The position numbers and the translations under genes were made by a program. The notes beneath the pieces were generated by a model that made no database searches, had not been told where the DNA came from, and worked only from the letters and a program-made list of their open reading frames with translations. A DNA stretch of 64,000 bases. Origin: Odiellus spinosus (lineage: Eukaryota; Arthropoda; Arachnida; Opiliones; Phalangiidae). Shown piece after piece: positions 33,498 through 59,136 of this stretch. The stretch spans positions 18,129,320 through 18,193,319 of the forward strand of contig OY987230.1 of NCBI GenBank assembly GCA_963920705.1. Reading direction: 5' to 3'. Positions within the stretch are counted from its first letter, which is position 1. Every line of letters begins with the position of its first letter.

Positions 33498-34505
33498 ATG
33501 TCGGAAATTGAAAACGACATGGATACGGTAAGCCAAAAAACTAATAATTTTTAGAGTGGCAATTCAACATACGATAACTCTAAGCGTATCGCAAATTTCA
33601 ATTAAAATAACACACGTCAAAATGGATCAGGATTCATACAAGATTTAACTAACCAATTTATAGGTTTTTCAACGACTTTTGCATAATATTTATAGGTGCA
33701 GTCAAATTAATATTTTGGTGTGGTCAAAGATTTAAAAATATGAAGGCTTGCTAGGACTTTGTCATCTTTTACTAACCCATTAATTAAACTTACTAAGTAC
33801 CCTCAAAAATTCCCTTATGTCCAAATTTTCCCTGATGAATTCTCAGCATTCTAATTTCATGACATTTCTGGGTTCTCCAGATTTTAGAGGATTATGATTA
33901 CGATTTAATTAAAGGATCATGAAAGCGTTAATTTGCTGTTAATTAACAAAGTTATAGGTTGCGAATAATCTTACACGCTTCTAATACTACTCTTAAAATT
34001 TTAGAACGACCTGATCGATCGTAGCACCGAAAGTAATGACAGCGCCACTGTGGACATGATATTACCAGAATTAAGACCACCTAACATGTGCGGGGTGAGA
34101 TTAAAAACGGCGGCAAAAACCTCCGCGTGTTTAATAGCGGTAGGTTTAGCATTCGTTACAATTGGAGCAATTGTCGAAGTGCTGTCGGCCAAAACTCAAA
34201 CGGGACACACGGCCAAAGTGGCTAGACATTGGAAAGAAACGCCTTTGGACGTTTTTGGCATATTTTTCATCGTTTTCGGTGTATGTTCTTCATTGTTCGG
34301 AATATTTACAATGATCAGAGTGGTCTTGGTGGTCAGAAAAATTAGAAAACGTAACAATATTAACGGTGCGGGACGCGAAAGAACTGTGACAAGCGTTAGT
34401 GGTTATGTCCACAGAACGCATAACGAACACAGGCTGGAATCATTTCCTTCCTTAGACGAAGGATCGGGGCACGGATTCATAAGGCAGTTTATTGGGAAGA
34501 CTTAA
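33498..34505 (+). CDS. Two-membrane-segment protein, cluster member 1 (176 aa)
   Basis: Two exons, 33498-33527 (MSEIENDMDT, ending at GTAAGC) and 34005-34505 (after TTTTAG), join in phase 0 and end at TAA. The product has a 49-residue polar N-terminus, membrane segment 1 at about residues 50-71 (ACLIAVGLAFVTIGAIVEVL), a short basic loop, membrane segment 2 at about 93-118 (VFGIFFIVFGVCSSLFGIF), then the basic stop RKIRKR and a polar tail. Both segments carry spaced glycines. It differs from the other three members in lacking a PPPPY tail. I do not recognise the family. Layout resembles small two-pass proteins such as TMEM51, but no sequence match was tested. No signal peptide is evident. Confidence 0.8.
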
Positions 34506-34699
34506 TAACTAAAAGCCTTGACCTTGGGTTTGACCCGAGTATAAACATACACCAGGAAACAATGTACAAGAAAATGTAATGGTGATAAACTGTCTATAAA
34601 AGGCAGCGTCCAACAGGGACCCAAATCTGTAACCCAAATTAAAACTTCGATTTCTAGCTCTAATAATACATAGTTTTCACTAAAGGGGGGAAATGCAGT

Positions 34700-34816
34700 T
34701 CCCTCAGTGTTGCCAACCACTTGTGAGCGCAAACTTAAGCAGAGCGAAAGGCTAGCAGTTCAGTTTTGAAACTGATTTGCTCTGAACTGCGGTCACAAGC
34801 TCCTGGCAACCCTGCA
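34700..34816. mobile_element. ~115-bp inverted-repeat element ending TGTTGCCA / TGGCAACCC
   Basis: The left side has GTTGCCAACCACTTGTGAGC and the right side inverted has GTTGCCAGGAGCTTGTGACC. A related copy in opposite orientation lies at about 39747-40236 and is split by another insertion. Confidence 0.6.
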
Positions 34817-35159
34817 ATGAAAGGAAAGCTGGGAAAGAGGGGTAGAATTTTAAGAGGGAATCTGCAGTTTTCTATCGGAAACTAAATTTAAAATGTTTAC
34901 GGAATAGAATTTTGGTTTGGTCGAAATTTGGTCTCATCATGAATTTATACATAAATTCATGGTCTCATCTACGTTTCTATATACCGAAATATAGTATTAA
35001 GATTTGTGTGTGATCTTTATGCTACGCATAAATAATGAAAATAAGTCATTACATGACTTTTAAGTAATTTAATGTATATATTAAAATGCCTGATGGCTGA
35101 ATGAGTTAGAATATGTTAGAATACTATGTGTTTAATTATTTCATACTTCAATGCTAAAC

Positions 35160-35280
35160 CGAGGCCTAATTCTAACAAAATATAACGAAAAGGGGAAGAT
35201 TTAAGAAGATTTCGTCTGCTAAAACTAGGCCTAATTCTCACCGGATGTAAAGAAAGGGGAAATATTTAAGGAATTTTTTT
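35160..35280 (+). repeat. Two tandem ~68-bp units
   Basis: The string GGCCTAATTCT with a following GAAAGGGGAA and ATTTAAG occurs twice in a row, with the motif TTCGTCTGCTAA between them. Confidence 0.5.
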
Positions 35281-37084
35281 TATAACGGCAATAATGTTAA
35301 TTTAAATAATTTGACCCGTTACCCACAAAACCAACCATCCGAATGTTTTTCAGGATATCACGATGAAAATATGACGCTACCCAATAACCCTAAATGGTCA
35401 TTGAGTCAGCCTTTAAATAAAAATTTATTTACAAATAAATATCTAAAAATGACCAAGAATTTATATCTATTGTTATTTATTAGTAGGTTCCGGATTATCT
35501 ATTGAAACCGGAAGCTAAACAAGCTCGTGTTAATATCAAGCGGAAGCTCTCCTTAATTTGATCTCTCGGAACGGTCGCCTATGGTCCGTTTAACTGGGAG
35601 ACAATTAATAAGCAAAGACGACCAAAGAGATAAAGGCGGTAAATTGGTAACCACATACTACAGCCTTGTACGTGTTATTTCTAACTAGTCAAACAGACTG
35701 AAGGCGCTAAAAATGGACATTAAAGAACAAGTCTCACAAAATTCCACGGCTATGTAAGGTTTTTTTTTACATCTATGTAGGTTAATATTATTAAATTATT
35801 TTATTAGATTGCTACTGATATTAAGAAAAACAGATTATTAAATTTTGTGTTAAGGACAATGTGGTTTAAGCTGTCTGTTAATTTTTTATTGCATTTGATT
35901 GGTTCGTATGCGCGTATATTAGGGGAAATTTCTCTGTAACCTGAGTTCGTCTGCTAAATTAGTTACGTAATATCTTTATTGCAGTCAAAGCTACAGGCTT
36001 GTACAACGATTACACGAAGTGTACTGTTAAGCCCCTCGCGAGATCTAGTTTATAACTATACGTTACTTTCTTACAATTTTATGAAGAGCAAAGCCAGATT
36101 GCACGATCTAGCGATCTGATTGGACGCAACATTCGATGTGGACGTATCGTGTCAACCACGGATCCGAATTTTCTCATGTAATACCTCATTTCAAAGCTCT
36201 CCGCGAGTACTATTCCAATATCTCATTAACAAAAACGCGAATTTGAAAGAGACTCGCGCTTTAAGTATTAAACCGTGGTGTTACGGCGTACCGGGCGTAG
36301 TATTATATAGAATAACCATCAAAACGGAAAGGGGGCCGGACCAGGGACTCGTAAATATAGCGGTTCAGCTCGTTTTAATAATCCAGCTTGGGAGAGGAAA
36401 CCGCGGCGGGAGCCATATGCTTTTCGGCTATCGTTACTACAAACCCCAGATGAGGAGGAGAAGGGCCAGGAAATTGTATTATATCTTTACTATACGTACG
36501 AGAGCATAGGAGGGGTTTCCTCGCTATAAAACCAGCTGCTCGCGAAGCGTGGGGTAAAGCTAGACTCTCTTAATATATATATATATACGTAACGCAGATG
36601 CTTTATATTGTCGACGCTTTCTATATGATATAGGACCACGCGGTGGCACGCGCCCTGCCTTTCCCAAGCCTAAATTTTAGGTTTAGTTTCGTTTTTTTCC
36701 TTTTCTAAAGATGACCCCCAGCTTGTATTAACATATCGAGCGTCGCCACGTCCCCCCAAACGTAACCCTCCTTCATCCTGGGTCCGAAACGTGGCGCGTG
36801 GATGGCCGGGGAAAGCTAAGGATGGAGACAGATCATTCACGATGCAAATATTATTTGGGATTTTGGAGAGACGGCTGGCCTGATCCCGGGAGAGACCCTT
36901 TTGTAAACGAATTTTTAAGAGGGGGTTTCATATTTTATTTTCCCCGTGATATAGATTTTTGCAGCCTTACTTGATAAGTTGATTTGTAATTCTGGCGCCT
37001 AGCTAGCTAGTCAGTTTTAAAATTTGGTGTATCTACATTATAACCTCGGTTTAAAACAAAAAATCATAGTTTTCCCGCGCTTTT

Positions 37085-37149
37085 ATTTTGGATTAACCTA
37101 CTTGAATTGAAGAGGGATATACTTTTGAATTTGGAGAGATTGGACTGGT
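37085..37149 (+). other. Probable non-coding first exon of cluster member 2
   Basis: A strong donor (ACTG|GTAAGT at 37150) and the acceptor TAATTTCAG before 37618 fit a 5' UTR intron ending about 95 bases before the ATG at 37713. The region 36540-36840 upstream is GC-richer and could be the promoter. The start is uncertain. Confidence 0.5.
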
Positions 37150-37712
37150 AAGTTTTTTTGTTTTTGCATTTGCACATCAGCTTAAATGTAATTTAGAGTA
37201 AGTCGTACGCGTATCTTTCTCCTAATTAGTCAGTGACTTTGAAACCTTTTTGGTAAGATTTCAAATTAGCCACCTCATATTAGACGATTCAAAATTATGA
37301 ATATTTATACAGATTTTTCAAGGCAATAATTTCATTTCTAGCCCCAAAATTTTATAATATTAACTTGTCAATCGTAAAAGTTTGGGTACAACTGTAGAGA
37401 AAATGTTTCAAAGTGTCTAGAGTGAAGGTATAGATTTAGAAAAATTTAAATCCGTTTTGTTAATGGATTCTTAATGGTTTTGTCTCAAGCGTTTTAAATT
37501 TTGGACTTTGAGGTGTTAAAAATCGATAAACCATTAATTATTTCAACTCTATTTTGGGGATATATAATAATGATATTAAATATAGTTTAATTATTTATAA
37601 ACCCTAAATAATTTCAGAAATAATCATGAATACCTAACGAGGAAAGAAAAATCGAAGCAGAACCAAAACAGAGACATTTTTAACCCTATCAACGCCAATT
37701 AAGAAAACAACA

Positions 37713-38264
37713 ATGGAATACAATCCTCATGATCCTTACTTACCGGAAACGATAGCGGCGCGTTCCGGAAACGGACGTTTATGGCCACGACCTTGCTTAC
37801 ATATTGTTCTGGTCGTTGGTTTCGCCTTCCTGGCTTCGGGCATCGCTTTGACCATTATCGCGGGTCATCCGGATCTCCTACCTCCCTCTACCGACAGTAA
37901 CACGATGCGCGTGTTCGGTTACGCGTTTATTTGCGCGGGTGGTGTCGTTATGCTCAAAGCAATCGTACTTTTCGCCTTGGATCGACGCTCTTTACTAAGA
38001 TCCGCGAGTATCGACGACGTCATTCCGACCCAATCGGAACTCGGTAATAATAGTTCTATGATGACAGCACCGCCTTTCGGTAGTCCAAGGTACTCTCCTT
38101 GGTCAAGGGTACATTCCTATCACTTGTACTACCCGGAAGTTAATAACGCCACGGTTAATTCCGGAAGGTTTCAGTCTTGCGGGCAAGATTTGGACGCCTC
38201 GGGTTTGCCTTGTCGATATTGGGATCCTCCACCTCCTTATCCAGGCAAAAGCACCTTAACCTAG
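37713..38264 (+). CDS. Two-membrane-segment PPPPY protein, cluster member 2 (183 aa)
   Basis: A single coding exon with ATG at 37713 in good context (CAACAATGG). A four-codon upstream frame (ATG at 37626) precedes it in the leader. Membrane segment 1 spans about residues 29-51 (LVVGFAFLASGIALTIIAG), a 14-residue loop follows, and segment 2 spans about 67-89 (FGYAFICAGGVVMLKAIVLF), then RRSLLR. The tail is Ser/Tyr/Pro-rich and ends with PPPPYPG at about 172-178, a PPxY ligand of WW domains such as those of NEDD4-type ubiquitin ligases (known of the motif; not shown here). The coding sequence is GC-richer than its surroundings, which supports a real gene. Family not recognised. Likely an integral membrane protein with both ends on the same side. 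Confidence 0.8.
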   Translation: MEYNPHDPYLPETIAARSGNGRLWPRPCLHIVLVVGFAFLASGIALTIIAGHPDLLPPSTDSNTMRVFGYAFICAGGVVMLKAIVLFALDRRSLLRSASIDDVIPTQSELGNNSSMMTAPPFGSPRYSPWSRVHSYHLYYPEVNNATVNSGRFQSCGQDLDASGLPCRYWDPPPPYPGKSTLT

Positions 38265-38365
38265 TTGGGAAACAATAAAAATTAACAATTTTTGAGTCCA
38301 TCGACAACTTAATTAAAAATTAAGGACTGAACCAATTAAATTATGTGAAATGGTTAAAATAAACA

Positions 38366-38573
38366 TAAGCTTCGTTCATACTAGGCCTTGGAATCGATTT
38401 AAACCGTTTCGCTAGAATCGTGTGAACGGGAAACCGTCTGTTCTCGAATCATTTTGATTCGATTTCCTGAAACTGCTTTGGGAACCGGTTTCAACAACCG
38501 ATCGATTTAAAGATAATTTTTTTTGATTTTACCGTTTCAAATCGATTAAGAAATGCTAGTGTGACCGTAGCTA
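38366..38573. mobile_element. Inverted-repeat element 3' of cluster member 2
   Basis: Ends TAAGCTTCGTTCATACTAG and, inverted, TAGCTACGGTCACACTAGC, with repeated AATCGATTTAAACCG inside. Same family as the tubulin-intron element. Confidence 0.6.
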
Positions 38574-39746
38574 TAGAGAGGATGACGTATGAGAAAACAC
38601 AATCTTAAAAATTGTACAGAATTTTATAAAAATTTAAAAATTTGTTACGTAAATTTAGTACATTGCCAATATATTATTTCCCATATATAGGATACTTCCG
38701 AAGAATAATTTGGCCAACAAAATATTGGTTAATTTTACCCCTGAAATGATATTAACTTTAAAGATTACCAAAAATTTACTCCAATAGCTAACTTTATCCT
38801 TTTGTAAGATTATCACTCGTCTAAATAAATATAAGCACGTTAAAATAGAGTAATAAAGCGGTAATTTGCGCGGTAAATTATGTAGTAATTTACGGTTTGC
38901 TACATGGTAATTTATAATTTAAAACTTAGTAGTTTAATAGTGAACAAATTTCTAAAAACTAGGTCATAGTTGAAAGTTTTAAATCGTCTTCAAGTCTATT
39001 TTTAAATAATTAAGAACTTTGCCCTATCAACGCGGTCAACCACCAATCAATTAATCATTTAATTCTTAAATTTAAACTTTATTTATAAATAAATTGTAAA
39101 AACAAACCTATTCCTTTATCACACAATTGTAAATATTATAAAATTAAAGTATAAAAATTATATTTTTTTTTTAAACCCGTCCCTTTTTCAATTTTTTCCT
39201 AATCCTAAATAATCCGAATCTCGATATAGTAAAGGTTCCCTAAAAATCTGGGATAAAATTTATCGTTTATTTTCATCACCAATCGGAGTTTGCTCTACCT
39301 TAAAACCTACTCTAATACATTCGTCACTTCATTGTAAGAATTTGAAATTACATTTGAACCTAGCTTCGTACTTTAAGAAAATTGAAATTGGAACAAAAAT
39401 CACTCAATAATTTATGCGTCGAAGCAAAAGTAGACGGGAAGAGATTTTTACGTGAAATATGGACGTCGAAGAAACATAAAAAATGACATCTAACGCGCGA
39501 AGGTAAAAAAAAGTGGGTATAGAAGAAAAAAAAAACTAAAAAAAAAAAAATTATAAAAAATTCTCATCAGGAATTCATTTTACAATGGGGGGAAAAAATC
39601 GTTCTTATCTTCTATAGAATAAAATAAGCCTTGGTTACGAAATGACGGTGGGTGATCATAAAGGGAATATGACACGCTTTCAATTTATTGTGATTTATCT
39701 TTCTGATTGGGATGTCTTTGGGCAAAAGTCCCAGCTTTTCTTTCAA

Positions 39747-40236
39747 TTGAAGGATTGCCATGAACTTGTGAACCCAGAAAAAAATCAGTTCCAAAACTGA
39801 ACTGCTAGCTTTTCTCAGGGTTGCCACAGTTTTTTCAGATTCACTGACTTTTCCAGGTTTTTCCCTGACCTTTCCCAACGATTTTCCATGACCGTTTCAG
39901 CTAATACTATCCAATTTTTAACCTTTTATTTTGCAATTGCGTTCGCCAAACTTTTTGCACGCGTATCTTTGTTCTAATCTATACAACTGACACGGTCAGC
40001 TTCGAATCTTTTCTGCAGATAATGATTGTAATTTCCTGGCTTCTTGAAATATCTTTGAATTCCCTGACTTTTAAAAATATATTTTTGGTTCTTTTTCAAA
40101 TTCCCTGACTATTCCTTGTTTTCCCTGACTATTCCTTGTTTTCCTGACTATTCCTTGTTTTCCCTGACCTTTGGCAACCCTGTCTCTGTTTCAGTTTGCA
40201 CTCACAAATGGTTGGCAAATACTTGGGGAACGAAAT
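39747..40236. mobile_element. Nested insertion: a CAGGGTTGCC element inside an older inverted-repeat element
   Basis: The outer element (39747-39815 and 40183-40236) matches the 34.7-kb element in reverse orientation. It is split by a segment of about 367 bp with ends CAGGGTTGCCA and TGGCAACCCTG (39816-40182). The inner segment holds a tandem array of about 20-bp units (TTTTCCCTGACTATTCCTTG) at about 40080-40170. CAGGGTTGCC ends suggest hAT, but no clear 8-bp duplication is seen. Confidence 0.6.
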
Positions 40237-41046: not shown

Positions 41047-41348
41047 GAGCTGGGAGTCTTGGCGAACTCCTGTAATCCAGCGTCTTGGAAGCTAGAATCA
41101 TTGGTCGGTATGAGGTAGGGAGATCTGTGACTCGTTGACCCGTGTAGATCGGATGTCCGCGCTAAGTCGGGCGTCAATATGGTGACCTCGGGGTAGCCCG
41201 TGGGTCACCAGGTTGGTCTAACGAGGAGCGAATAGGCCCAGGGCAGAAATGTTGCAGGCAAAAGCTCCCGCGTCAAACAGTAGCGGGTTCGCGTCCGAGA
41301 GCTGGCGGCGAGACATAGCCTTATCAAAATGACCGTACACGATTCTTT
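41047..41348 (+). ncRNA. 7SL: 7SL RNA (signal recognition particle RNA)
   Basis: The 7SL core is plain: GATCGGATGTCCGCGCTAAG, TCAATATGGTGACCTC, CACCAGGTTGGTCTAACGAG, then GGCCCAGGGCAGAAA, GCAGGCAAAAGCTCCCG and CAGTAGCGGG. These are in the same order and spacing as the S domain (helices 6 and 8) of animal SRP RNA. The 5' Alu-like domain (GAGCTGGGAGTCTTGGCGAA, CCTGTAATCCAG) and the 3' part (GGCGGCGAGACATAGCC) flank it. A T6 run at 41346-41351 would stop RNA polymerase III and makes the RNA about 300 nt, the usual size. The RNA scaffolds SRP, which targets nascent secretory and membrane proteins to the ER. The exact 5' end is inferred. With a complete S domain and terminator it looks functional rather than a pseudocopy. 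Confidence 0.93.
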
Positions 41349-42099: not shown

Positions 42100-42236
42100 G
42101 CGACGAGAAAGCGGCCGGAGAGAAGATTATTGACTGCTTTTTTACGCCGCTAGCCATCCGTGTCGCTGCTAGCTAGTCCGTCGATGTTCAAACCTACGTC
42201 CTACGCACCCCAAAATTCACTCTTCTCTCTCGCTCC
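42100..42236 (+). other. GC-richer segment ending in a donor-like site
   Basis: The stretch ends CTCGCTCC|GTAAGC and is CpG-rich relative to its surroundings, so it may be an unassigned 5' UTR exon. No ATG frame joins it to a known exon. Weak call. Confidence 0.25.
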
Positions 42237-43647: not shown

Positions 43648-43861
43648 GAGTTCCCTTATTATTGAACTATAGTTGTAACTTGTTGTTGGTTTACTTGTTG
43701 GTCTATATTGATTTGTTTCTCGCGAAAATATGATTTTATAACTTTATCATTTGTGGTCACCGTGGGAAAAATAAAAGGGTTAATTCTGAGAACCTGAGGG
43801 AAATAATTTTATATTCTAAGGGAATAGTTCTGAGAAATGGGAAGGTTTCAAAGACTAATTA

Positions 43862-44620
43862 ATGAATGAGAAAGATGATAATTCTGAGAAAGAGAAAGAC
43901 GATAATTATGGGAAAGTGAAAGACGATTATTATGGGAAAGTGAAAGACGATAATTATGGGAAAGTGAAAGACGATAATTATGGGAAAGTGAAAGACGATA
44001 ATTATCGGAAAGTGAATGACGATAATTATGGGAAAGTGAAAGACGATAATTATGGGAAATTGAAAGACGATAATTATGGGAAAGTGAAAGACGATAATTA
44101 TGGGAAAGTGAATGACGATAATTCTGGGAAATTAGGGAAGGATAATAATTCTCGGAAAGGGAAAGATGATAATTCTGGGAAAGAGAAAGACGATGATTCT
44201 GGGAAAGGGAAAGACGATAATTTTTGGGAAAGTGAAAGACGATAATTCTGGGAAAGAGAAAGACGATAATTCTGTTAAACGTGGAAGACGATAATTCTGG
44301 GAAAGAGAAAGACGATAATTCTGTTAAACGTGGAAGACGATAATTCTGGGAAAGAGAAAGACGATAATTCTGTTAAACGTGGAAGACGATAATTCTGGGA
44401 AAGAGAAAGACGATAATTCTGAGAAAAGGAAAGACGATAATTCTGGGAAAATTAAAGTTTACAATTCTGTGAAAGGGAAAGATAATTCTGGGAATGGGAA
44501 AGATATTTCAAAAAGGAAATGATCAAATTGCTAGGAGAGTGAAAGACGATAATTCTGTGAAAGAGAAAGATCTGATAATTCTGGGAAAGGGAAAGGCGAT
44601 TACTTTTGGAAAAGGGAAAA
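43862..44620 (+). repeat. 24-bp minisatellite (GAAAGTGAAAGACGATAATT..)
   Basis: Some 25-30 units of about GGGAAAGTGAAAGACGATAA TTAT, degrading toward the right (GGGAAAGAGAAAGACGATAA TTCT, later mixed). Because the unit length is a multiple of three it opens a 127-codon frame reading KVKDDNYG repeats, but no splice site, start context or non-repeat protein supports a gene. Confidence 0.85.
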
Positions 44621-46069
44621 AACAATTTTAAGAAAATTTTGAATGACGACAAATCATGAGAAAGAAAAATAAATCAGGGAATATCACTGAAAATAATTGG
44701 TTTTCCAAACGTGGTTTTAATTGACTATGTTCCGGGAAAATGTAAGTTATATAGGATAATTAGGTAAATATTATTCTACCAAGTTACTAACGCAAAACGT
44801 ATCGTGGGAAAATAAATGAAAAACACAGCAAAAGAGTTTACAGGCCACGGCGTTTGACAACAAAAACACGATAAAATGTAAACGTATGGGAACGCTTACA
44901 ATATAGGTCATGCAACTCTGACGATTGTGATAAGTAATATAGATTTTCGCAGCCAAATTTGCGTGTCGTTTTCAACTCTTTTAAATATGAGAAATAGTAT
45001 TTAAGTATGATAATGTCTACAAACAACGATGTCAAAGGTTAGACCATATTAATTACGATTAAAATCAACTTATTTGATTTTAGAGCAACAATATTGAACA
45101 ACGATTTCAAACGAAAAAGCTCTGACGTCAATGATGGTAAAATAAATCAAATATAATTATCGGGAAATTTTTGACGGGCTTTAATAAAAATGAATAAAAT
45201 ATAGTATAAAGGCGCGTGGGGAGATATTCAGATAGCTAGAGTTCCGGCAGGATGGGCGAGATCGACAAATTGCGCCGTAATTAGTCCACGCCCCTTATTT
45301 AAAAATTCAATATGTTACGGGGGGTTTTTATATAAGTTGCCATTTTCGGATAAAAATAGATATTTATATTATTTTATTTTATCCTCGGATTAGTTAACTC
45401 TATTGATAAATAAATAATATATTTTTAAGTAAAACGGATATCATCCGAATTTAGCAGATCTATCCAATAAATAATTTTATTCAAATTTGTAGGACTAATT
45501 TTAAATAAATTAATTTTTCTGTCTGTCCCCCTTTAAGTATAAACGTTACCAATTTAGAAACACTCCATATATAAGCATAAACTAATATCAACGATAGAAA
45601 TAGGCCCCCCTCTACATTGCAATCGAAGCGATAAAATCTTATCAGAGAGGGAGAGAATTTTTAATCTTGTTCGATAGAGGAGTTATCAAAATAGCGAAAA
45701 ATTGAGGCGAATTGATACACAATATTAAACTCCGTAGAAAAAAGTAGTTTGTAAACTGCTCTTGTTTACGAAAAAATTATAACTTGACATTTAAGAGCGA
45801 ATGCAATTACCAAACAAGTTCCTGAAATTGAACAAATTTGCCAACTAAAACAAAAATGTTTTCTATTGGAAATATTATTCCTATCATACCTTAATGTTGA
45901 AACAATTGAAAAATATAAAATCAAATCAAATCTATTGATGATTGCGTAAGGCAAACACTTTAAAAGACTACCATATATTCTTAAGCAAAGACGACATTCA
46001 GATTCTGATTCAACAGATAGTATTTCCATGCACAAAGGCTTCCAAATAAAAATAACCTTTTTTCTTTAA
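44621..46069. other. AT-rich intergenic stretch
   Basis: No gene, RNA or clear repeat element seen. Confidence 0.4.
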
Positions 46070-46544
46070 AGGGAGAATGAATGGCCAAAACAACCTATTT
46101 TTAATCGATTAAGAATGCTAAAATAATGAGAAAAACAATAATATAACTCACCAAAAATATTTCGTTATTTTATAATCAATTTCCAAAGTTCCGAAACTTT
46201 CAGATGCTAAGCCTTGGCTGCCTAGCTCGGCGAACTAGGCGAGCACGAGTCGTATTTTTTTTTAATATTCCCGTCTGATCTAGTCACCAATCACGAGCGA
46301 GTACGCGTATTTTTAAAATACGCGTACTCGCTCGTGATTGGCGACCAGAACAGCCGCGAATATTAAAAAAAAAATACAGGTCGTGCTAGCCTAGTTCACC
46401 GAGCTAGGCAAACTAGGCTTAGCATCGGAACTTTGGAAATTGATTCTAAAATAACTAAATATTTTTGATGAGTTATATTTTTTCTCATTATTTTAGCATT
46501 CTTAATCGATTAAAAATATATTGGTTTCGCCTTTCATTCTCCCT
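46070..46544. mobile_element. 475-bp near-perfect palindromic element, copy A
   Basis: Arms of about 235 bp mirror each other around a centre GCGAGTACGCGTATTTTTAA / AATACGCGTACTCGC near 46295-46335. The ends AGGGAGAATGAA and TTCATTCTCCCT are flanked by TTAA (46066-46069, 46545-46548). A second copy lies at 52008-52484 in the same layout. No coding capacity. TTAA targets point to piggyBac/Kolobok-like mobilisation (inference). Confidence 0.85.
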
Positions 46545-47398
46545 TTAAAGAAAGAAAAAAAAGAACCTTCCAATTGAATTATTATATTACTCCTAGTGCA
46601 GAGTGACTTAGGAATTTAAAGATCAGACAGCCCTTGGTGAGGTGCCCACTTTGGTTGAATAATGTTTGTTCCCTTTTGTTGCTAAGAAAGCTTCAAAACA
46701 TTTATAAGATAAAAGATATAGGTACCACTATCACGAAAGAAAAAAAAAATAGGTTTTTTACAGAAATTCCAGGACCAGAAAATGGGTAAAAAAAAACGTT
46801 ATTTGAGAAAATGACACCGTTCGGAAATTCAAGAAGTATCCTATCGTTGATCGTATTTTGGTGGAAAAGAATTTTTCAGGAGAAGATACGTTCGGGAAAC
46901 AGTTTTAGATTTCAACGCTCAGAGCTCTACATTCCTAACATACTTATTTCTATACTGTATCTATTTCTATAACAAAACAAAGCACAGATATAGTCTCTAA
47001 CGAGGGATTTAAGCTTGATACGTGCTGAAATCTCGGGCTAATTCTAATTATAGAACTTTAGAATCATACAGGTTTGAGTTTTCAGCTGGAAAAAAAAATT
47101 ATTTAATCTCATCCTTTATCTCCAAAGCTGTTTTTCTTTGGGCTGCTCCTGGAGGAAGGAGTGCTCCGGTAGTAGTCAGAGCAGACAAAGGATAAAACAC
47201 AAATACAGCTTTACACGTGCTGAAAAATCAAACTGATTCCAACTATAGACAAAAATAAATTTCAGAAACAAGAAACTAGCAACCCACATCCCTTTCTTAG
47301 GCACGATTTTGAATTATTTTAGAGCAAAGATACATAGGTGAAAGTTTTGTAGAACTACTAGAAATTTGATTAAGTTTAGAATTATGGTTAATTTCAAT

Positions 47399-47736
47399 CA
47401 GAAGCCGATGAAACCCTCCTTTGAAGTCTATTACTCCCGGGTCTTGTCTACCCCTCTCTGTATGGGTTACTCTGAAAAGGCGCGATTCGTACGCCTCCTA
47501 ACGGTAGATAGTTTTCGGAGCGAGAGCTCGTCGAGCGAATATCTCTAGCAGCCTTGCAGTTCGTCCAAAAAACGTCGTCGTTTGTGGAGAGAGAGAATTT
47601 CCAATTTTCCGTAGACGGGGGGGATGAAGTAGGACCCCTTCTAACTTGTAAAATTGGGAATTTTACCCATACAGAGAGGAGCGCTATATGGAACATTGGA
47701 GTAGTAGACTTCAAAGGAGGGTTTCATCGGCTTCTG
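47399..47736 (+). mobile_element. 338-bp element with 7-bp target duplication, copy 1
   Basis: Terminal inverted repeats of at least 35 bp start CAGAAGCCGATGAAACCCTC. They are flanked by perfect 7-bp direct repeats TTTCAAT (47392-47398 and 47737-47743). A second copy in reverse orientation is at 58789-59129. No coding sequence. Two independent 7-bp duplications argue for a transposase with 7-bp staggered cutting. Confidence 0.85.
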
Positions 47737-48489
47737 TTTCAATTGATAGTAACAGGGTAGACAAATCCAGTACACTTCACGAGGGAAAGTTCTTTGGGGT
47801 AGCAAGCTATATCTCATCAAACGTTCAAAAATTTTAAAACGAGCTAGAAAATATTATTTAAATAATAACTTTTTTGCTACCGACCCCGAGGTGAGTTCTT
47901 GAATTCCTTGGACACTCGGGTTCATACTCTGAGTTTAGCTTTGGTAGTGCAAGATATCAAAAACCGCAAGTGTCTGCTGCCTCAAAGTTTTCCATAAAAA
48001 TATCTAAAACAATTGCTGTTGGAAAATCGCCTACATGTCGCCTTAACCTTAAGTCTTTATTGTACGTCGGGCTGTAATCTTTACAAGGGCTTCCTTACCA
48101 ATAGTGTCTATTATTTTAAAATACACATGCAACCTGACTCTATTCGGGCTTCGTCAAATTTACCTTACGAAATTTAATTTTCTGAAGTTGAAAAAAATTG
48201 GCGAATTTGTTTTCAATCATGATTTTCTTTTGGACAAAAAAGCAAGTTAAATTATGACGAAAAAGATTTTGGTGAAAAATATTGATTGAAAAGGCGCCTT
48301 TACGGAAATAAACCGAGTGAAGATTAATCTAAAGGCCTAATGTAATATTAGGAACGATTGGGAACCAAAAATTAATTAAAAACAGATAAACCTTCCTTCC
48401 TTTAAGTTGCTGATTTCTCTTCATTATTAATTTCTGATATAACTTAGGTTATGTTCCGATATAGCTTAGAAACTCATGGCCTGATTCCC

Positions 48490-49475: not shown

Positions 49476-49479
49476 TACT

Positions 49480-52007
49480 TTTCCCAATAGTTGATAATAA
49501 AAAATAACTTGTGGGTGCGAATGTTACTAACCACGTCACGAAATCACGTGGCGTTAAGGTTATACAGTGCAGTTATTTCCGTTTTCATAAAACGCTAGGG
49601 GTCAGAGGGCTCGGAAGTCACTCGGGAGAGATCTGACCTTGAAAGCTGACACGGATATAGAAAAATTAAGCTTAAGAAATGCTCGGTGCTCACGAGCGCT
49701 ATGAGCTTTACAAACTATGACGTAGCTTATGACGTCGACTAATAATGATAGCAACTATTTGTATTCGCGAGCTGGTGGCAAGATCAATTTGACAAGGCCC
49801 GAATCAAGTCAGGTTGCATGTTTACTTTAAATATATATGGCGAATACTAACATAAAAGTACAGAAGTAGTTTTTGGTAACCTATATGTATGTACATGTAA
49901 GTAGAAATGATTACGCGTTATCTGTTCTGGCAAACATAAGGCCTGCAATAAGAAGAAAATGAGTATAGGGAGATGTAAAAAAAAATTGGAAATGGGGAAC
50001 TCGAAATGCGGATTAAAAAAAATGGGTAAAAATGTTCTTCAAATCTCCCTATAGACGAAGAACTACAGTAAGATTAAGTTCGGAATTTCAGCGTAAAACG
50101 AAGGAACAATTACATCCGTAGACTACAAAATATATCACTGAAGTAATAAGGTGGTGTAAGCTTTCTTGATGAAAGCTCGAAAAATAGATTGGACCTTCTC
50201 GAGCCATTTTCCTCCATGAAACAATCCCAACCATCCCGATTTAAAACTACGTACGACTTTCGTAAGTTAATAGGTTTTAATAAAAAAGATAAAGAACTTT
50301 CCTTGGTAAAAATACGCATCAACGTAGCCTTGTACGCGTTAACTTGACCAAGTCGAATGAACATAAGGGTAAAATATAATCTTTCGCTTGATTGCGAAGA
50401 CTTTCGGGAGATTTTCAACGAATTGCTATATATACTCAAAGGACAAGCTTGTTGAATTATGACCTTAAAGATGGGAGTTAAAAGTTCGTAATTGGTCAAT
50501 TTTTGGCAATGAGATCAGTTTCTTTTAAATAGGCCATTAAATATGAAGTTAACGAATTTTCAAGGGTTCTTTAAAACTTCAAAATTAAAATGCAAAAAGA
50601 TATAGGTCATTTATTTTACGATATATGACGTAGTTTACGCTTGGAAAGGGAGGATTTTATGGATTAAGTACTTTTACGAAAAATACGGCGCGAAAGCGAG
50701 GTTATCACGTGCCAGAACGCGCGAGAATCAGCTGTAGGCTCGATAATGATGACGTAGTATTGCGGGGAATTTTTCAAATTTTAAAAATGGCAATTATAAA
50801 ATATGCATTTTAATTATAGCTGTAATTTCTTTCCATGACATATGTATATATATTTTGAATCGTTTTCTAACGATCTTTCCGAAAATACTACTTAATTTAT
50901 ATTTGGAAATGAATTTTCACGAAAAATCCGTGATAGCCTAACTTAAATAAATTATCAATTTTAATAAGATATATATTTATTCAAAACCATGCGCAATTTC
51001 ATTATTTGTGGGCCTATTTTAGCGTTCTTTGCCTTAATTTGAATCTCTAATCGTGCTCTCTTGGAATACGCTATTACCTAAAAAGGCTTCTCATCACGAA
51101 ATGTGGTCTCCCTTAACGCAGAAAAAAATAAAAATAAAATAAAAATAAATAAGAGTTTCGGAGGAAGAAAAATACATCTTTTCGATTTCTTTTTTTTTTT
51201 TCTCCAAGAATCCAGTTAGCCGTTTCTCTTCTCTCCTCATCTATTATAGTTATTAGAGTCAGTTTGAAGTATTCAACGCGTATAAAGCGTAAGTTTACTC
51301 TTAATCCCTAAGCCATGATTGATTAGAAATAAGGAGGAATTCCGGCTTTGCACGTACAGCAATTTCAAAGTGATATGACTTAATATTTTGGTTCGAAAAC
51401 TGAATGCAATGTAATGAAAGCTAAGACGGATTAATTCGCAACGTTAAACCATATAGAACTTGTAAGTAGATTTTGCAAAATGTTCGTGAAATACGTGAGC
51501 TGAAAGGTTTAAAAGACGTGAGAACACAGTTCGCTTTTCTTAAGCAAACACCTTTAGGGTTTGGACTATATACGGAACTGGGTATACATGAATATTATAC
51601 TTTAGACGGGGAAGGAAAAAGCTAATATTAGATTGTTCATATATGTCCGGGCCGATGTTTTTATAGCCACCACCTTTCTACTCCAGCTGTAGGCGAGACT
51701 TATATCTCTATTTCCCCCTTTTTTTACGGGGTCCTTTTTTCAAATCGACGACTTTTCGTTTAATACTGGTTCTTTTAGTTCTTTCAGTTCTTTCAAAAGA
51801 GAAACTCATTTAATGTCAAGAACTGTTAAAAAAATAAATAAAAATATAAATGAAATGTGTGCTCAGTAATATGGGTACTACAAGTGATGTAATATATATA
51901 CTATAATTTCTGAGATATTACTGAGTGATATTACTCAATTGCGTTAATTGAGAATAACACTATTTTTCAAGAGTGTGGATGACTTTCTAGCTTTAGCAAT
52001 TTGTTAA
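49480..52007. other. Intergenic stretch without supported genes
   Basis: A 129-codon open frame on the - strand (50110-50499) has no ATG at its start and no recognisable content. Nothing else is seen. Confidence 0.4.
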
Positions 52008-52484
52008 AGGGAGAATGAAAGGCCGAAACAACCTATTTTTAATCGATTAAGAATGGTAAAATAATGAGATAAACAATAATATAACTCACCAAAAATATTT
52101 CGTTATTTTATAATCAATTTCCAAAGTTCCGAAACTTGCAGATGCTAAGCCTTGGCTGTCTAGCTCGACGAACTAGGCGAGCACGAGCCTTTTTTTTTTT
52201 AAATATTTCAGTCTGATCTAGTCGCCAATCAAGAGCGAGTACGCGTATTTTTAAAATACGCGTACTCGCTCGTGATTGGCGACAAGAACAGCCGCGAATA
52301 TTAAAAAAAAAAAAAAAAAATACAGGTCGTGCTAGCCTAGTTCACCGAGCTAGGCAGCCGAGGCTTAGCATCGGAACTTTTGAAATTGATTATAAAATAT
52401 CGAAATATTTTTGGTGAGTTATATTATTGTTTTTCTCATTCTTAATCGTTTAAAAATAGGTTATTTTGGCCTTTCATTCTCCCT
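52008..52484. mobile_element. 477-bp near-perfect palindromic element, copy B
   Basis: Same sequence and layout as copy A at 46070-46544, with small indels in the A/T runs. Flanked by TTAA at 52004-52007 and 52485-52488. The two copies are similar along their full length, suggesting fairly recent spread. Confidence 0.85.
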
Positions 52485-52981
52485 TTAAGGAATCGATAAA
52501 AAATCGATTGTTGTTAGGTTGCATTTTCCCTTTAAAATATTATAGTCGGTTGATAAAATGTAAACTTAAAGATAAAATGTAAATAACATTTTTAAGTTTT
52601 CAGATAAAATGATAGGAAAATATTAATATAAAAATATTAATATTTTCCTACCATTTTATCATTTTTCTAGTAAAATTTTTTAAACTATAGTTATTAGTTT
52701 TTTTTTAGCTATATTTCGATGGTTTGCTAAAATATAAACGTCATAAACATTAACTATAGTTAAAAGGAAGAATTTAGGCTTTCTTGGTCTTGACCATTCT
52801 TGTTTGATAAAACACTAGGCTCGATATGTGTATATTACGAGGGCGAAACCTAATGTAAAATTCTCTTTATGTAAATATCGGGCTACGTTTGCCCATCTCT
52901 AGCTCTTTCCATCTCGCAATTTTAAATATTTAAACTCCGCGTCTTTCTATTTCTCTTCCGTTCTAGTTTATTCCCTCAGGT

Positions 52982-53060
52982 TATTCACGTAGGAGCCGAC
53001 GAGTTATACGCCGAAAAGGACTTTGTCTTCAGGATAATCAGGGCCAACATCAGCGCCACA
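52982..53060 (+). other. Probable upstream exon of cluster member 3
   Basis: A pyrimidine-rich acceptor (TTCCGTTCTAGTTTATTCCCTCAG) ... (first 20 bases shown are TTCCGTTCTAGTTTATTCCC) precedes a GC-richer block ending at the donor CACAA|GTAAGTAC. Spliced to the acceptor at about 53677-53678, it would leave an open frame (VIHVGADELYAEKDF ... SATSDDYTT) running into the MPSSP start. Either it is 5' UTR, or the protein starts further upstream. The consensus Kozak at 53695 favours UTR. Confidence 0.5.
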
Positions 53061-53423
53061 AGTAAGTACTTAAATCTCCAAGTATACGTCATTAATTAAA
53101 ATAATTTAAATATTTAAAAGCCCCATGGTTAATAAATTTAATATAAAAGATTATATACTACGGGGGGAAAGCTATGTAAGAGTATTGTTGATATCAAAAA
53201 TCAATAATATAACAGAAACTCTAAGCAAAAACAGGCCTTCTTTCCCATGCCAGTAGAAAAACAAGTTCTTAAAGACACGTACTGATAGCCAGCCAATAAA
53301 AGCCCACTTCGATTAGTTAAATTCTAGGGGATATCTCGAATTTGAGCCTCAGAAACATTATATAATCCTGAGATTATCAGTAGAAAGGTTAGTAGCTAGA
53401 CAGGTCAAACAGGCTTTGTTGTA

Positions 53424-53587
53424 AATCACCAAATCACGTGACTGTTCGGAAACTGGACTTGAATTTCCAGAGTGTAACTTTACAGAAAATGAATAGATTC
53501 AATTTGATTGTAAGTTCATCCATCCCTTTATGGGATAGGCTCTGGAAATTCAAGCCCTGATTACCAACAGTCACGTGGTTTTGCGAT
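53424..53587. mobile_element. Inverted-repeat element with CACGTG in each arm
   Basis: Left AATCACGTGACTGTT and GACTTGAATTTCCAGAG are mirrored on the right by CTCTGGAAATTCAAG and AACAGTCACGTGGTT. It lies about 90 bases before the splice acceptor of cluster member 3. Confidence 0.6.
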
Positions 53588-53694
53588 TGCGTCAGAGCGT
53601 GCTTAAATTGTCTTCTACTAGCCTTAATCCATCCCTGAGAATTCTACAGGAAAAGAGTTCATTGTTTATGTTTTCAGGTGACGATTATACCACC

Positions 53695-54438
53695 ATGCCT
53701 TCTAGTCCGGCTCACAACGCTCGCCAGGCGGCCGTATCAGGATGGCGTGCCTGTAGCAACCTTTCCTTCAAATGGTGTATCGTCTTAGACCTGGTCGGTT
53801 TAGCCTTACTTGTCACCGGTTTGACCTTAATATCGGTGGGCTACAGTCCCAGCGAAACGCGTAGGGGTAGACTAGGCGAAGTACCCGTGGACAGTGGTAA
53901 CAAAGGTATGCAGATTTCCGGTCTAATCATATTACCAATTGGCGTCGTCTGCTTTTTTACGGGACTAGCCTTAACGGTAAAATCGGTGCGTTCGGATCCT
54001 AACGATCGCGATCGAGTTATTAGACCAGTTTCGGTACAAGTAAGGCCGCAGGCTGCTACGCAACCAAACGCGAATAGACCTCGTACGGTAACGGTGAACC
54101 AGAGGAATCAACCGAACCAACATTTACCTTCGACTGGTTATAACGCGAATGAACGGGAAGGTAGTATTTATTCGCAATTGCCGTCCCGGGTTTCGGCACC
54201 AAGATTATCCACAGCGACTAGCGCCAGTAGTGACGTGTTTTATATCGAACAGTACGACGTCACGCCAAGAAGAAACGTACCACCACCACCCCCTCAATCG
54301 CGTACGTCATCGGCTTATACTCATAATCCGTATTACAGTCGAGGAAGAATGTACGCCGTTGGTCAAGATTACGAAGGACCGCCACCCCCTTTTAATCCCA
54401 ATTACGTTACGGATACTAACAGACGTCAAAGATATTAA
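53695..54438 (+). CDS. Two-membrane-segment proline-rich-tail protein, cluster member 3 (247 aa)
   Basis: The coding exon starts after TATGTTTTCAG (about 53678). The ATG at 53695 has a full Kozak context (ACCACCATGC). An in-frame GTG far upstream (53575) lies before the acceptor and is not used. Membrane segment 1 spans about residues 28-50 (IVLDLVGLALLVTGLTLISV), then a 22-residue basic/acidic loop, segment 2 about 73-95 (GLIILPIGVVCFFTGLALTV) and VRSDPNDRDR. The long tail is rich in Asn, Gln, Arg and Pro, with PPPPPPQSR, a Tyr-rich HNPYYSR and PPPPFNPNY near the end, a degenerate PPxY site. Poly-A signal AATAAA lies near 54580. Family not recognised; architecture matches members 2 and 4. 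Confidence 0.8.
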   Translation: MPSSPAHNARQAAVSGWRACSNLSFKWCIVLDLVGLALLVTGLTLISVGYSPSETRRGRLGEVPVDSGNKGMQISGLIILPIGVVCFFTGLALTVKSVRSDPNDRDRVIRPVSVQVRPQAATQPNANRPRTVTVNQRNQPNQHLPSTGYNANEREGSIYSQLPSRVSAPRLSTATSASSDVFYIEQYDVTPRRNVPPPPPQSRTSSAYTHNPYYSRGRMYAVGQDYEGPPPPFNPNYVTDTNRRQRY

Positions 54439-55932
54439 TGACGAGAAATGTTTTTAATTAAGGTTTTATATCATAAGTCTTTAAATATTTTTTTGTAATT
54501 GCTTTAAAATTAAAAAAAAAAAAAAATCCCAAAAAGTCATTTTTCTAAATATATATATGAATGTTTTACGAATTTTGTAAATAAAATGTTTATATAGACA
54601 CGTTGCTTATTAATTAAAGAATGGTTTCGTAACCATTACACTTATCTAAATTCTAGAAAAAAAAAAATAATGCCGATAAACACTTCATTGAACGATCAGG
54701 GATCATTTCTGACTAGAGATTAGATTGTTGAGAAAAGGTTAAAAGTCAAATCGAAATGGCGAGACAATTTTATACTACATTATAATAGTCTAGGATTTTA
54801 ATTATTCAAGTTTAAGTCATGAAATAATATAAATCATTTTCACATTTTTAGTCATGATCTTAAATTTAAAAAATCCTTGAAATCCATCCCAGGTTTACGA
54901 ACAATTCTAAAATTAAGTATTTTTCATTGCAGATTTTACCTTAAAGGGAGGGTGAAGAGGACAAGGAAGCGAGTTATTAAGGATTCTTTAATCTAAGACA
55001 TGTTTGTAAAACATTAATGTCCTTTAAACATGGGTTTAAAATAATAATAATTCGAATATTAAACTATGTTTTAATCCCATTTCTACTATAATATTCCGAT
55101 TAAGGCTTACAACCAGCTAGGGATAAAATATTTCAAAACTGAAAATTCATTTAGAATGAAACTGAGATAACGAATTTATTTTCGTTTACATAACTATTAA
55201 TTATATCCGTATTTTATCCTCAATTTCGTAATTTCAAAACGATTTCCAAGAAACCGGCTTCAATCCACAAATTACCGAAATAAAATCTTGCATTTATATA
55301 AAATTGAATAAACGTCTGAAAACCGAGTTTTAAGTTTGAACTTTCATCACATACGAAAGTATAAAATATTCCAAGCAATATATGTTAATTTAAAAGGCTT
55401 AGAAAGGATCATAGTATTATACGTACTGAAAACTCACGATGACATCGAAAAAATCATAATCAAACCTTATCAGCTTAGAATAAGGTTCGAAAACGTTAGC
55501 CAAGCTGGGTTGACTTGACTTTGATCCGCAGAGCCATGGCGTTCGTTCATATTCTAATCTATTTTCTATCTTATTGGCTGTTTCAACTTTCTTATCCATC
55601 CTTCTATTCATCAATATCACGCAGGTGTAACGGTACAAATATCTATACCTGGAGACGACCCGAGTTAGGCCTAATCGTTAAGCCTAAACGCTAAGCCTTT
55701 TACGAGCTGACGTTGCGGAAATTTTAAGCTTCTGCGTGTAATAAACAATTTTGTTGTAAAACGGTGCCTTTTGACGCGGCAGGTTTAATTAAGATTCGAA
55801 CGTGTTTAATTAGAAGAGGCGCGGTAGCGAAGAGAGATATACAGAATTTAGATATGAACCGATCGAATATCAAAACGTGCGTCGATTTTACTAGTTAGCC
55901 CAAGTATACTTCACCGAAAATGAAATTTTAAA

Positions 55933-58674
55933 ATGCCAGTCAACGCCGCTGCAACTGGGGATGATGGCACGAAGTAAGTTATGGTATTCTAAATGTAAAA
56001 GTGTCGGTAACGAATATTAATTAAAATCTAATGAATTGTTTTTTTTGACATAAGTAATAGGAAAATGATCCAACCTTTTCATAAATGTAATTTTATAAGT
56101 TTTTGCTTCTATGGGACAGACGGAAATTCAGTTTTTGGATGGATATTTTACCCAAATTTCCGTCTGTCCCAGGTAATTCGGATAATTATTAAAGGATCGT
56201 GTCACAGACACTTTAATTTGTGAAAGGAACCAGTAGTCCTCGGGCTAAACATATTTGCGTTTGCTTTTTGGAGTTTTCCAAAATGATTCTCTCAATCTTT
56301 CGCTCACTCTCTTCTCTCTCAGTGCTTCTCTTTACTCAATAAATATCTAAAGAGGAGAAATTTTCCGGAAAATATCCTTGGGCACTTTTGGGAATAAATA
56401 ATACTACATACAAAGAAAATTAAATTTAGAAAAAAAAAGATAATAAATTTAAATATTTAAGTATATATGAATTCTTTCATAGAAATATTTACTATATTGT
56501 CTTTAGAGGATTAATGTTTTTAATAAGTATCCTTGATTAAAGTAAGGCTGTCACCATTTTTTCGTCTGATTATGGATTATATTTTAGTTTTATCATACTA
56601 TTAAAACGTCATAGTCAAAATTTTATACCTATAAGTTGAACAGTTCTTAAGAAACTTCCAAAATGAAAATGTTAAAGGCCTAGGATTTCGTCTGCCTGTT
56701 TCACTGGAAATGGGCTCACCTTCTGAGATTCCCCTTTGGGTAGCAAGGCAAGAAAAAGCCTGGAGGGTGAGTTTGTTTCCAGGGTGGCAGGCAGAAGTAA
56801 TCCTAGGCCTTTAAAAATACTTCTGGAACAAAATTAAGGATGATTTTCTTACGAAAGGTAGGACATTCTGGATTAAGTACTTTTACTAAAAAGACAGCGC
56901 GAAAGCCACCTTAACTGTATTCTCTACAATAGCCACGCGACGTAGAATTGCGAGGAATTTTATTTTAAAAATTTCGCAACTCATAAAATTGAGTTTAAAA
57001 AGTACTTTGATTAGCTGCAGATTTTCTGACATCGAGTGATTTGGTTTATTAATTGCAAATTAATGAGAAAACTTTAGTAAGTTTTAATGATGATTTTATC
57101 GATAATTTAAAGCTTAATAACAGATTCCTCGTCTTCCTTATCACTTTAAAATATTATAAAATTTATGGGATATTAAATTTTCGTATTCCAAGGTTGTGTC
57201 GCCGCAGTTCTGACCCGTTTCTCTTTAATGTTTGAAACACGCTTTAAAATGCACCGAAATTTGCGCAGTACGGCTTATTGAGCTATAATTTATTAGTGAG
57301 ATTATATACACCGTATATTTGTGGGTCCCTCGCTTATTTTAAAATGATAACTTTTTTCCCGGGCCGCTTGAAAGGTCACCTAATGTCATCCGCTGGCTGC
57401 TAAGTTATTGAATTAGTTGCCTTCCAGCATGGCAAAGAGGAGATAGTTGCCGGTCCGTTTAAAGTCTTCAATCTGGTTATTGCCATCAAGAGACCAATGG
57501 AATCCCGGATCATACGTAAATAACCGGACGACAATGATCAAATAAAATAGGTTCCTGGCAGATTATGTTTTAATTTTATATTTAAAAAGAAAATTTAATA
57601 TTCAGTCATTTGAAATTCACGTATTATCTTTATAAATCGATTTATAGTGGCTTCATCTATCGGTTGTTTATAGCGAATCGGTATGAAACTGGTTCCCGAA
57701 GCAGTTTCGAGAAATCAAATCAAATCGATTCGAGAAAAGACGGTTTCCCGTTCACACGACTCTAGCGAAACGTTTTGAAACGGTTTAAATCGATTTCAAG
57801 GCCTAGTCTGAACGCGTATAAATTACATTTGAAAGCGTGAAGAATTCGTGACAGCCTTACTTTAAATATTTGCACCGAACAAAATTACAAATATATCATC
57901 TTATCAAATTCCAAGAAGTATCCGAATGGCGTTTACTCAGAGAACGAGATAATGACAAAAAATTTCCCTCCCCAAGAAAACGTTTCTCCAATCCTAGTTC
58001 AATTAACAACTAAAGTTCAACATAACGGAAAGATATGGATATAATTTTGTAAATCAAACTAATTTCTTTATATTTTCCTATACAGCATCAATGCCAGTGA
58101 CCCCGCTTATCTACCGAGCTACGAAGAAGTTTGTCGCAACAGAAGCGAAAGCAACGTGACCACGATCGAGGAAGACAATTCTGGGATAAGTTTCGTACCC
58201 GACCCTGTCTCTCCCAAGAAATTCTGTAACAAGAAACGAGTCTTCGCCATGATAATGGTTGGATCAGCCATGGTCTTGATAGCCGGTGTCATTCTGGCCA
58301 TCTTGTCTATCAAGAACCAAGCGTTTAGAATGTCGGGACTAATCTTGATTTTAAGCGGGGTACTAGGAACAATTTGTTCGGCTCCGTGTTGTTTCTACGT
58401 GACCATGAACGTGGACTTTCACGCGCGAGTGAGAAGGAGACGGTCAAGTGGTGAATCTAGCGATAGCCATTCTCCTTTACCGGCCATGGTGGAAAACATA
58501 TATCCCAGTATGATAAGGGCCAGTCGTAACCTCATCGTAGTCGATGGTATAAGACCACCGGGACCTATTAACCTTAGACCAGGGAATAGGACGACTTCTT
58601 TGTCAAGGCATTTGATCGCGTATCCTTCTTACGAACCACCACCCCCTTATTCACCGCCTCAAACCGATGCTTAA
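55933..58674 (+). CDS. Two-membrane-segment PPPPY protein, cluster member 4 (209 aa)
   Basis: Two exons, 55933-55973 (MPVNAAATGDDGT, donor AA|GTAAGT) and 58086-58674, join in frame across a 2.1-kb intron and end at TAA. The N-terminus carries LPSYEEV, a second tyrosine-proline motif. Membrane segment 1 is about VFAMIMVGSAMVLIAGVILA. Only a short loop (SIKNQAFRM) separates it from segment 2, about SGLILILSGVLGTICSAPCC, followed by VRRRRSSGE. The tail ends YPSYEPPPPYSPPQ, a classical PPxY site. The intron holds a TTAA-flanked hairpin element (56676-56810) and a diverged inverted-repeat element (57630-57835). AATAAA lies at about 58749, just before the 7-bp-duplication element. Family not recognised. 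Confidence 0.82.
56676..56810. mobile_element. 135-bp hairpin element flanked by TTAA
   Basis: Ends AGGCCTAGGATT and AATCCTAGGCCT, with inner pairs CGTCTGCCTG / CAGGCAGA and GGGCTCACC / GGTGAG, so the single strand folds into one long stem. TTAA lies at 56672-56675 and 56811-56814. It sits in the intron of cluster member 4, within a copy of the CTGTCACC dispersed repeat. Confidence 0.6.
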
Positions 58675-58788
58675 ATTAAAAATTTAATTAGGATATATTA
58701 TTTACAATTATACGTTATACATCTACTTTATAAATATTTCTAATCTGAATAAAAGATTTGACTTTATTAATTTGGTTTTCATCTTAAA

Positions 58789-59129: not shown

Positions 59130-59136
59130 TCTTAAA

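Follow-up and report, generated by a model that had tools for sequence, protein, structure and literature searches.

Four genes of Odiellus spinosus, here termed g1 to g4, may well be the first genes, on the upstream side, of a tandem array encoding diverged two-pass hairpin proteins, many with endosomal sorting signals in their tails, which would serve as trafficking adaptors, a reading held with middling confidence. The genes lie in a window of 64 kb, i.e., the whole stretch of DNA analysed, taken from a genome of 443 Mb (contig C6, 18129320-18193319). The proposal builds on direct observation of the reading frames, of two hydrophobic segments in each product, of similarity among the hairpins of a core set of members and of an excess of tail motifs. 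The hairpin is the common part of the array proteins; the tails vary, and many of them carry short sorting signals.

Rebuilding g1 to g4 from the sequence yielded for each a clean frame on the + strand with one stop and two hydrophobic segments, bearing out the original prediction of four two-pass genes with polar tails at these positions. The g1 gene (176 aa product) has a first exon at 33498..33527 (MSEIENDMDT; donor ACG|GTAAGCC) and a second at 34005..34505, which frame and hydropathy show to contain both membrane segments (34128-34184 and 34251-34307) and a tail without PPxY. The g2 gene (183 aa) is a single coding exon at 37713..38264 with membrane segments at 37803-37859 and 37923-37979, and its translation contains a tail PPPPY at 38226..38240, the PPxY of which starts 11 residues from the C terminus. 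The g3 gene (247 aa) occupies 53695..54438, with segments at 53776-53832 and 53923-53979 and a long tail containing PPPPF at 54379..54393, which is not a canonical PPxY; a candidate upstream exon, either 5' untranslated or coding, is present at 52980..53061 (donor CAA|GTAAGTA, in frame, no ATG). The g4 gene (209 aa) is composed of exon 1 at 55933..55973 (13 codons plus 2 bases; donor GAA|GTAAGTT) and exon 2 at 58086..58674, which encodes both membrane segments (58249-58305 and 58339-58395) and the tail; an LPxY motif, LPSYEEV, is found ahead of helix 1 at 58111..58131, and a tail PPPPY at 58636..58650, again with its PPxY starting 11 residues from the C terminus. Three members had been credited with PPPPY/PPPPF tails; among the four proteins only g2 (residues 173-176) and g4 (residues 199-202) contain a true PPxY, g3 having PPPPF in its place and g1 neither. 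Short coding 5' exons are confined to g1 (intron phase 0) and g4 (phase 2), and the differing phases rule out a single 5' intron common to the two; as g2 has no such exon and g3 only the candidate lacking an ATG, the shared short 5' exon or leader that had been proposed is not upheld.

The hydrophobic segments of all four proteins are 19 residues long with mean hydropathies of 2.1-2.7, the loops between the helices measure 22, 21, 30 and 11 residues in g1, g2, g3 and g4, and the 15 residues past helix 2 include 6, 3, 5 and 4 lysines or arginines, respectively. The longest frames in the window, measured from stop to stop, are those of g3 (299 codons), g2 (208) and g4 (203); that of g1 (166 codons) is unexceptional, two window frames having 174 codons and another 166. 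Under a leave-one-out codon-usage model g1 scored -9 bits, g2 24 bits and g3 and g4 ~11 bits, with the antisense strand of g4 scoring higher than g4 itself, and this is a weak test, as the SCAP exons themselves range from -17.9 to 6.2 bits when left out in turn. AlphaFold predicted two long helices for both proteins modelled: residues 29-66 and 78-121 for g1 exon 2 folded with the four-gene alignment (predicted local distance difference test score, pLDDT, below 50 at the ends, mean 61), and residues 26-51 and 62-100 for g2 (block pLDDT 82-92 over most of the helix length, mean 62). Any hairpin would be expected to give models of this kind, in which the helix cores are fairly confident and the tails are of low confidence.

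Taken singly, the pairwise local scores of the g1 to g4 hairpin cores are weak, their z values relative to segment shuffles lying between 1.5 and 3.1. Averaged over the six pairs, the core score is 41.0, as compared to 28.2 (standard deviation, sd, 2.3) for quartets of unrelated Escherichia coli hairpins and 28.0 (sd 2.1) for segment-shuffled quartets, and none of 5000 unrelated or 3000 shuffled quartets reached the observed value; the E. coli control comprises 59 hairpins from 17 of 19 membrane proteins, each quartet being drawn from different proteins, and this comparison is with bacterial hairpins and with core limits picked when the helices were already known. When profiles leaving out one gene at a time were run over the 1487 six-frame segments of the window, g1 (expectation value, E, of 1.8e-4) and g3 (0.01) were each recovered as the first non-seed segment, g2 as the second (0.47) and g4 as the third (1.9). 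The hairpin cores of g1 to g4 are as a group more alike than chance, with g4 the weakest.

The original prediction described a cluster of four only, which proved too narrow, as similar hairpin frames continue past the downstream edge of the window. The flanking DNA was read for 120 kb downstream, 90 kb upstream and then a further 20 kb downstream, with numbering continued from the window, and each downstream frame is named for its position in kb (m68 to m180). Candidate hairpin frames, all on the + strand, were found at ~68.7, 72.2, 75.5, 76.9, 78.5, 80.1, 82.6, 83.2, 84.9, 86.2, 87.9, 89.4, 92.3, 96.8, 98.3, 100.3, 105.6 (two hairpins), 117.7, 122.2, 140.1, 177.3 and 180.3 kb. Together with g1 to g4 these make up 26 candidate frames with 27 hairpins over ~147 kb, of which ~117 kb is outside the window. 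Of 95 frames in the window and the 120 kb downstream, 27 are hairpin frames with a length of 110 aa or more (24 on the + strand, 3 on the - strand); removal of two low-complexity - frames and a simple-repeat pair at 162082/162086 (one per strand) leaves 23 on the + strand and none on the - strand. The set of 26 consists of these 23 plus m82 and m92 (91 and 94 aa) and m100, which was spotted by its PPxY. In the 90 kb upstream, the raw count was 19 among 61 (12 on the + strand, 7 on the - strand; 7 of them were listed, 5 being visible repeats), with two such frames outside repeats. PPxY was present in 9 of the 95 frames of the window plus 120 kb downstream versus none of the 61 upstream. That the array is a real array of genes is held with high confidence.

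Homology across the array was detected in both directions. A profile of g1 to g4 retrieved m117 as the first of 4663 flank segments (E 2.9e-8), and a profile built from m75, m96, m117 and m68, with no window gene, returned m100 (0.023), g3 (0.096) and g2 (0.15) as its top three non-seed hits among the 6608 segments of 294 kb; once g1 to g3 had been added, m100 (0.0012), m105 (0.0061) and m180 (0.035) were found. The 351 core pairs have an average score of 32.7 versus 29.0 for shuffles (40 replicate means of 28.3-29.9), with nine pairs above the 99.9% shuffle level. The strongest are m78-m80 (151), m75-m96 (131) and m68-m117 (129), and m117 is the best partner of g2 (73), g3 (67) and g1 (54). 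Similarity declines weakly with distance in gene order (Spearman -0.12; 38 of 2000 permutations as low). In genome-wide searches, which score the best candidates only, the matches listed for m75 with E no higher than 1 comprised four places, its own and three more, each within the array; among the matches listed for g3 were itself and two at E above 1, and for g4 itself only. Codon position 2 was the least and position 3 the most divergent in five of six compared pairs, the pattern of protein-coding DNA. The m75/m96 cores gave a crude ratio of nonsynonymous to synonymous divergence (dN/dS) of ~0.26 over 74 codons, at a dS of 2.1, which is near saturation, and the remaining pairs in this comparison, apart from m78/m80, were saturated. 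Hairpin similarity above that expected from composition defines a core set of g1 to g3, m68, m75, m96, m117 and m100, and a second set, m76-m86, is linked by pair scores. That the core set is one family is concluded with good confidence, g4 being weakly tied to it; the tandem family inferred beforehand from the four genes is thus sustained for g2 and g3 and, less directly, for g1, by the quartet tests, the leave-one-out profiles and the downstream-only profile.

Two further features of the array were noted. The neighbours m78 and m80, with 40% protein identity, differ equally at the three codon positions and have a crude dN/dS of 0.64, a pattern that suggests relaxed or fast evolution. The single 477-aa frame of m105 contains two mutually similar hairpins (core score 81) and is apparently a fused duplicate.

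The tails of the array proteins are enriched in two short motifs. PPxY occurs in the last 25 residues of 5 of the 26 frames as ended, or of 6 with the spliced tail of m68, against a shuffle mean of 0.26, and YxxPhi at the very C terminus of 6 of the 26 (shuffle mean 0.73); in 4000 shuffles neither count was attained, the cases not being independent, as the array members are relatives. An earlier run on 19 of the 26 frames, picked without a strict rule, gave 5 PPxY (mean 0.21) and 6 YxxPhi (mean 0.58), again with 0 of 4000 shuffles reaching each. The near-terminal PPxY members are g2, g4, m68, m75, m96 and m100. The C-terminal YxxPhi motifs belong to near neighbours on the + strand, m76 (YGSLN), m78 (YEEIE), m80 (YEEI), m83 (YNSIE), m84 (YGTI) and m86 (YEAI), among which m82, a fragment without YxxPhi, is also located. 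The m68 tail, with PPSY and then PPPAY near its end, is gained via a 70-base intron with fair splice signals. Joining of the m72 hairpin to a PPPY tail was considered and left uncounted, as no convincing splice candidate was seen. The role of adaptors for WW-domain proteins put forward in the original prediction fits only the six PPxY members, six others having YxxPhi and the rest neither.

A mechanism of sorting via Nedd4-family ligases and clathrin adaptors is proposed with moderate confidence, by analogy with described systems. Both tails of each hairpin protein would face the cytosol, an orientation favoured by the positive charges of all four window genes. PPxY tails would then recruit ubiquitin ligases of the Nedd4 family (WW-HECT), and clathrin adaptor complexes would be bound by YxxPhi tails; the proteins would travel through endosomes and lysosomes and could, as adaptors, assist in the removal of other membrane proteins. 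This mode of action would resemble that of Sna3, LAPTM4/5, NDFIP, TMEM127 and Commissureless, and would not imply membership of those families. LAPTM4 and LAPTM5 have more membrane spans than two, NDFIPs have three and Commissureless has one; g1 to g4 have two, and no LAPTM or NDFIP Pfam model was among the matches listed for the 23 array proteins scanned. Nor was any model named for Sna3 among the array matches listed. Yeast Sna3 is described as a small protein that crosses the membrane twice and binds the WW domains of Rsp5 through a PPAY in its cytosolic C-terminal tail, and as one of a family of plants and fungi with four Sna proteins in budding yeast (PMC2171029); it is like the array proteins in its two spans and PPxY-type tail, and differs in that the yeast set of four is not a large array. 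In the tails of LAPTM4 and LAPTM5, PPxY or LPxY is combined with YxxPhi for Nedd4-dependent lysosomal sorting (PMC3214061, PMC5297682). The LAPTM5 motif is given there as LKVALPSYEE (PMC5297682), much like AYLPSYEEV in g4; the g4 motif precedes helix 1 and is not in the C-terminal tail. TMEM127, a four-span protein, is described as recruiting WWP2 by PPxY and, with Salmonella SteD, as removing major histocompatibility complex class II (PMC7342019), and Commissureless is reported to bring Nedd4 to Robo1 (PMC12101832). NDFIP1/2, TMEM127 and Commissureless are PPxY membrane adaptors for Nedd4-family ligases, and no sequence relation of the array to them was seen.

Several results weigh against reading g1 to g4 as members of an array of sorting adaptors. 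The six pair scores among g1 to g4 (37-45) overlap with the upper range of those of 1584 unrelated pairs (38 at the 95% level and 45 at the 99% level, with a maximum of 56), and E. coli yccA gives g4 a score of 52, above its scores with g1, g2 and g3. Neither g1 nor g4 was found at E up to 1 by the downstream-only profile over its 6608 segments, and g4 reached only E 0.86 even after g1 to g3 had joined it. Because only 27 of the 351 core pairs exceed the 99% shuffle level and 11 of the 27 hairpins have z below 2 relative to shuffles of themselves (m72, m82, m122 and m140 between -1.7 and 0.6), the 26 frames are not all shown to be relatives, and some of them may, from their sequences, be bystanders. 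Charge distribution was examined in 24 of the 27 array hairpins, and it favours tails-in for only 14 of them. A Foldseek search with the g1 model retrieved no solved fold at E below 0.001 among 309 matches at E up to 10; in the best 50 of the 309, the first were helix pairs of pore-forming proteins at ~20% identity, which were read as helix-pair matches and set aside as relatives. Neither motif is present at the stated places in 14 of the 26 frames; short tail motifs are promiscuous, and YEEI-like tails could bind SH2 domains instead.

These points leave room for a tandem two-pass family with some other main job, such as membrane or epithelial organisation or partnership with receptors or channels, in which the motifs would be ordinary turnover signals, an alternative that is a serious contender, if somewhat less than probable. 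The 14 frames lacking both motifs speak for it, as do weak Pfam matches, all below cut-off, to claudin-like (m68), tetraspanin (m117), TMEM100 (m68 and m177) and CD20 (m105) models. Against it stand the motif excess at fixed tail positions and the presence of PPxY close to the C terminus in members with otherwise dissimilar tails.

It is improbable that the array represents an animal family already described, such as Neurensin/TMEM74 or TMEM51, or one already in insect annotation, that is too diverged for the tools used or absent from them. Neurensin/TMEM74 and TMEM51 are two-pass proteins. The Neurensin/TMEM74 model (PF14927) matched g2 (E 0.026, 14.7 bits) and g3 (E 0.037, 14.2 bits), short of its cut-off of 27.7, and TMEM51 (PF15345) matched m117 (E 0.019, 15.2 bits; cut-off 25.5) and was absent from the g1 to g4 matches listed to an E limit of 10. 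None of the 23 array proteins scanned (g1 to g4 and 19 others, m72, m82 and m92 being left out) reached any Pfam cut-off, and the outcome that would have undone the proposed relationship of g1 to g4, a separate well-known family for each of them, did not occur. The best E of all, 7.5e-5 for m87 with DUF3671, corresponds to 22.7 of the 34 bits required. In ten shuffled controls, two each of the whole stop-to-stop frames of g2, g3, g4, m75 and m117, two had any Pfam match below 0.1 (best 0.025); such weak matches are commoner in the real proteins, a point in favour of a described family, yet they fall well short of the curated cut-offs and are spread over different families from member to member (Neurensin/TMEM74, TMEM51, TMEM100, claudin-like, CD20, tetraspanin and DUF models), and no family name is obtained from them. 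A profile search of the PDB gave a designed protein (E 1.9e-4), claudin-4 and claudin-18 (0.87 to 2.5) and a few others, all set aside as relatives and read as generic hairpin matches.

Finally, that unrelated small two-pass genes happen to be side by side, with the likeness of any hydrophobic hairpin to another, is very improbable: neither profiles nor pair scores recovered g4 and several downstream frames convincingly, the scores of single pairs fall partly in the range of unrelated hairpins and the weak Pfam matches scatter over many families, but no unrelated quartet in 5000 reached the observed mean, pairs as strong as m78-m80, m75-m96 and m68-m117 are present, all 23 hairpin frames outside repeats with a length of 110 aa or more are on one strand, and similarity falls, if weakly, with gene-order distance.

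Should the sorting-adaptor reading of the array hold, it would describe a large one-strand gene family that is unnamed by the Pfam models tested and comparable in size to the Osiris cluster, and the tails would suggest a role, amenable to testing, in sorting that depends on ubiquitin and clathrin. A repertoire of candidate Nedd4 adaptors would matter for the control of surface receptors and channels, because the known insect Nedd4 adaptors (Comm, Ndfip) are few. A bolder form, in which some 20-26 undescribed two-pass proteins combine one hairpin scaffold with alternative sorting codes (PPxY for Nedd4, YxxPhi for clathrin adaptors) and so tune the removal of surface proteins, is put forward tentatively and is on the unlikely side. 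Membrane proteins with PY or YxxPhi tails are already known, and what would be new is their occurrence as a large tandem repertoire; no description of such a cluster was seen among the papers listed in searches aimed at it or at two-pass PY proteins, subscription papers being mostly outside coverage. In layout, the array is reminiscent of the Osiris genes, which are described as ~20 diverged paralogues in one block of 168 kb, insect-specific and with a putative membrane segment (PMC3284338). Of the five features of Osiris proteins, DUF1676 (PF07898) was not listed for the 23 of 26 array proteins scanned (E limits of 10, 1 and 0.1), the AQXLAY motif is present in none of the 26 frames, and no N-terminal hydrophobic signal peptide was found in g1 to g4, the hydrophobic segments of which are internal, the first starting at residue 28 or later.

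Other genes surround the array. Tandem chemoreceptor-like frames directly follow it, beyond 184 kb, the first of which passes the PF06151 and PF08395 cut-offs (one gene tested). Disintegrin/metalloprotease-like exons, judged from translation alone, are located within the array region, and exons of actin, alpha-tubulin and SCAP, likewise judged from their translations, lie upstream of g1 to g4. Between g2 and g3, a full-length metazoan signal recognition particle RNA gene is found at 41049-41348 on the + strand (Rfam RF00017, 226 bits, model positions 1-299, in a search of window positions 33000-59200), as are tandem units of ~24 bases at 43840-44645 that open spurious long frames on both strands. 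Two copies of an inverted-repeat element are present at 46058-46562 and 51992-52502, 95% alike over 300 bases and 92% and 82% alike over two other stretches, and inverted copies of another element occupy 47391-47746 and 58779-59137.

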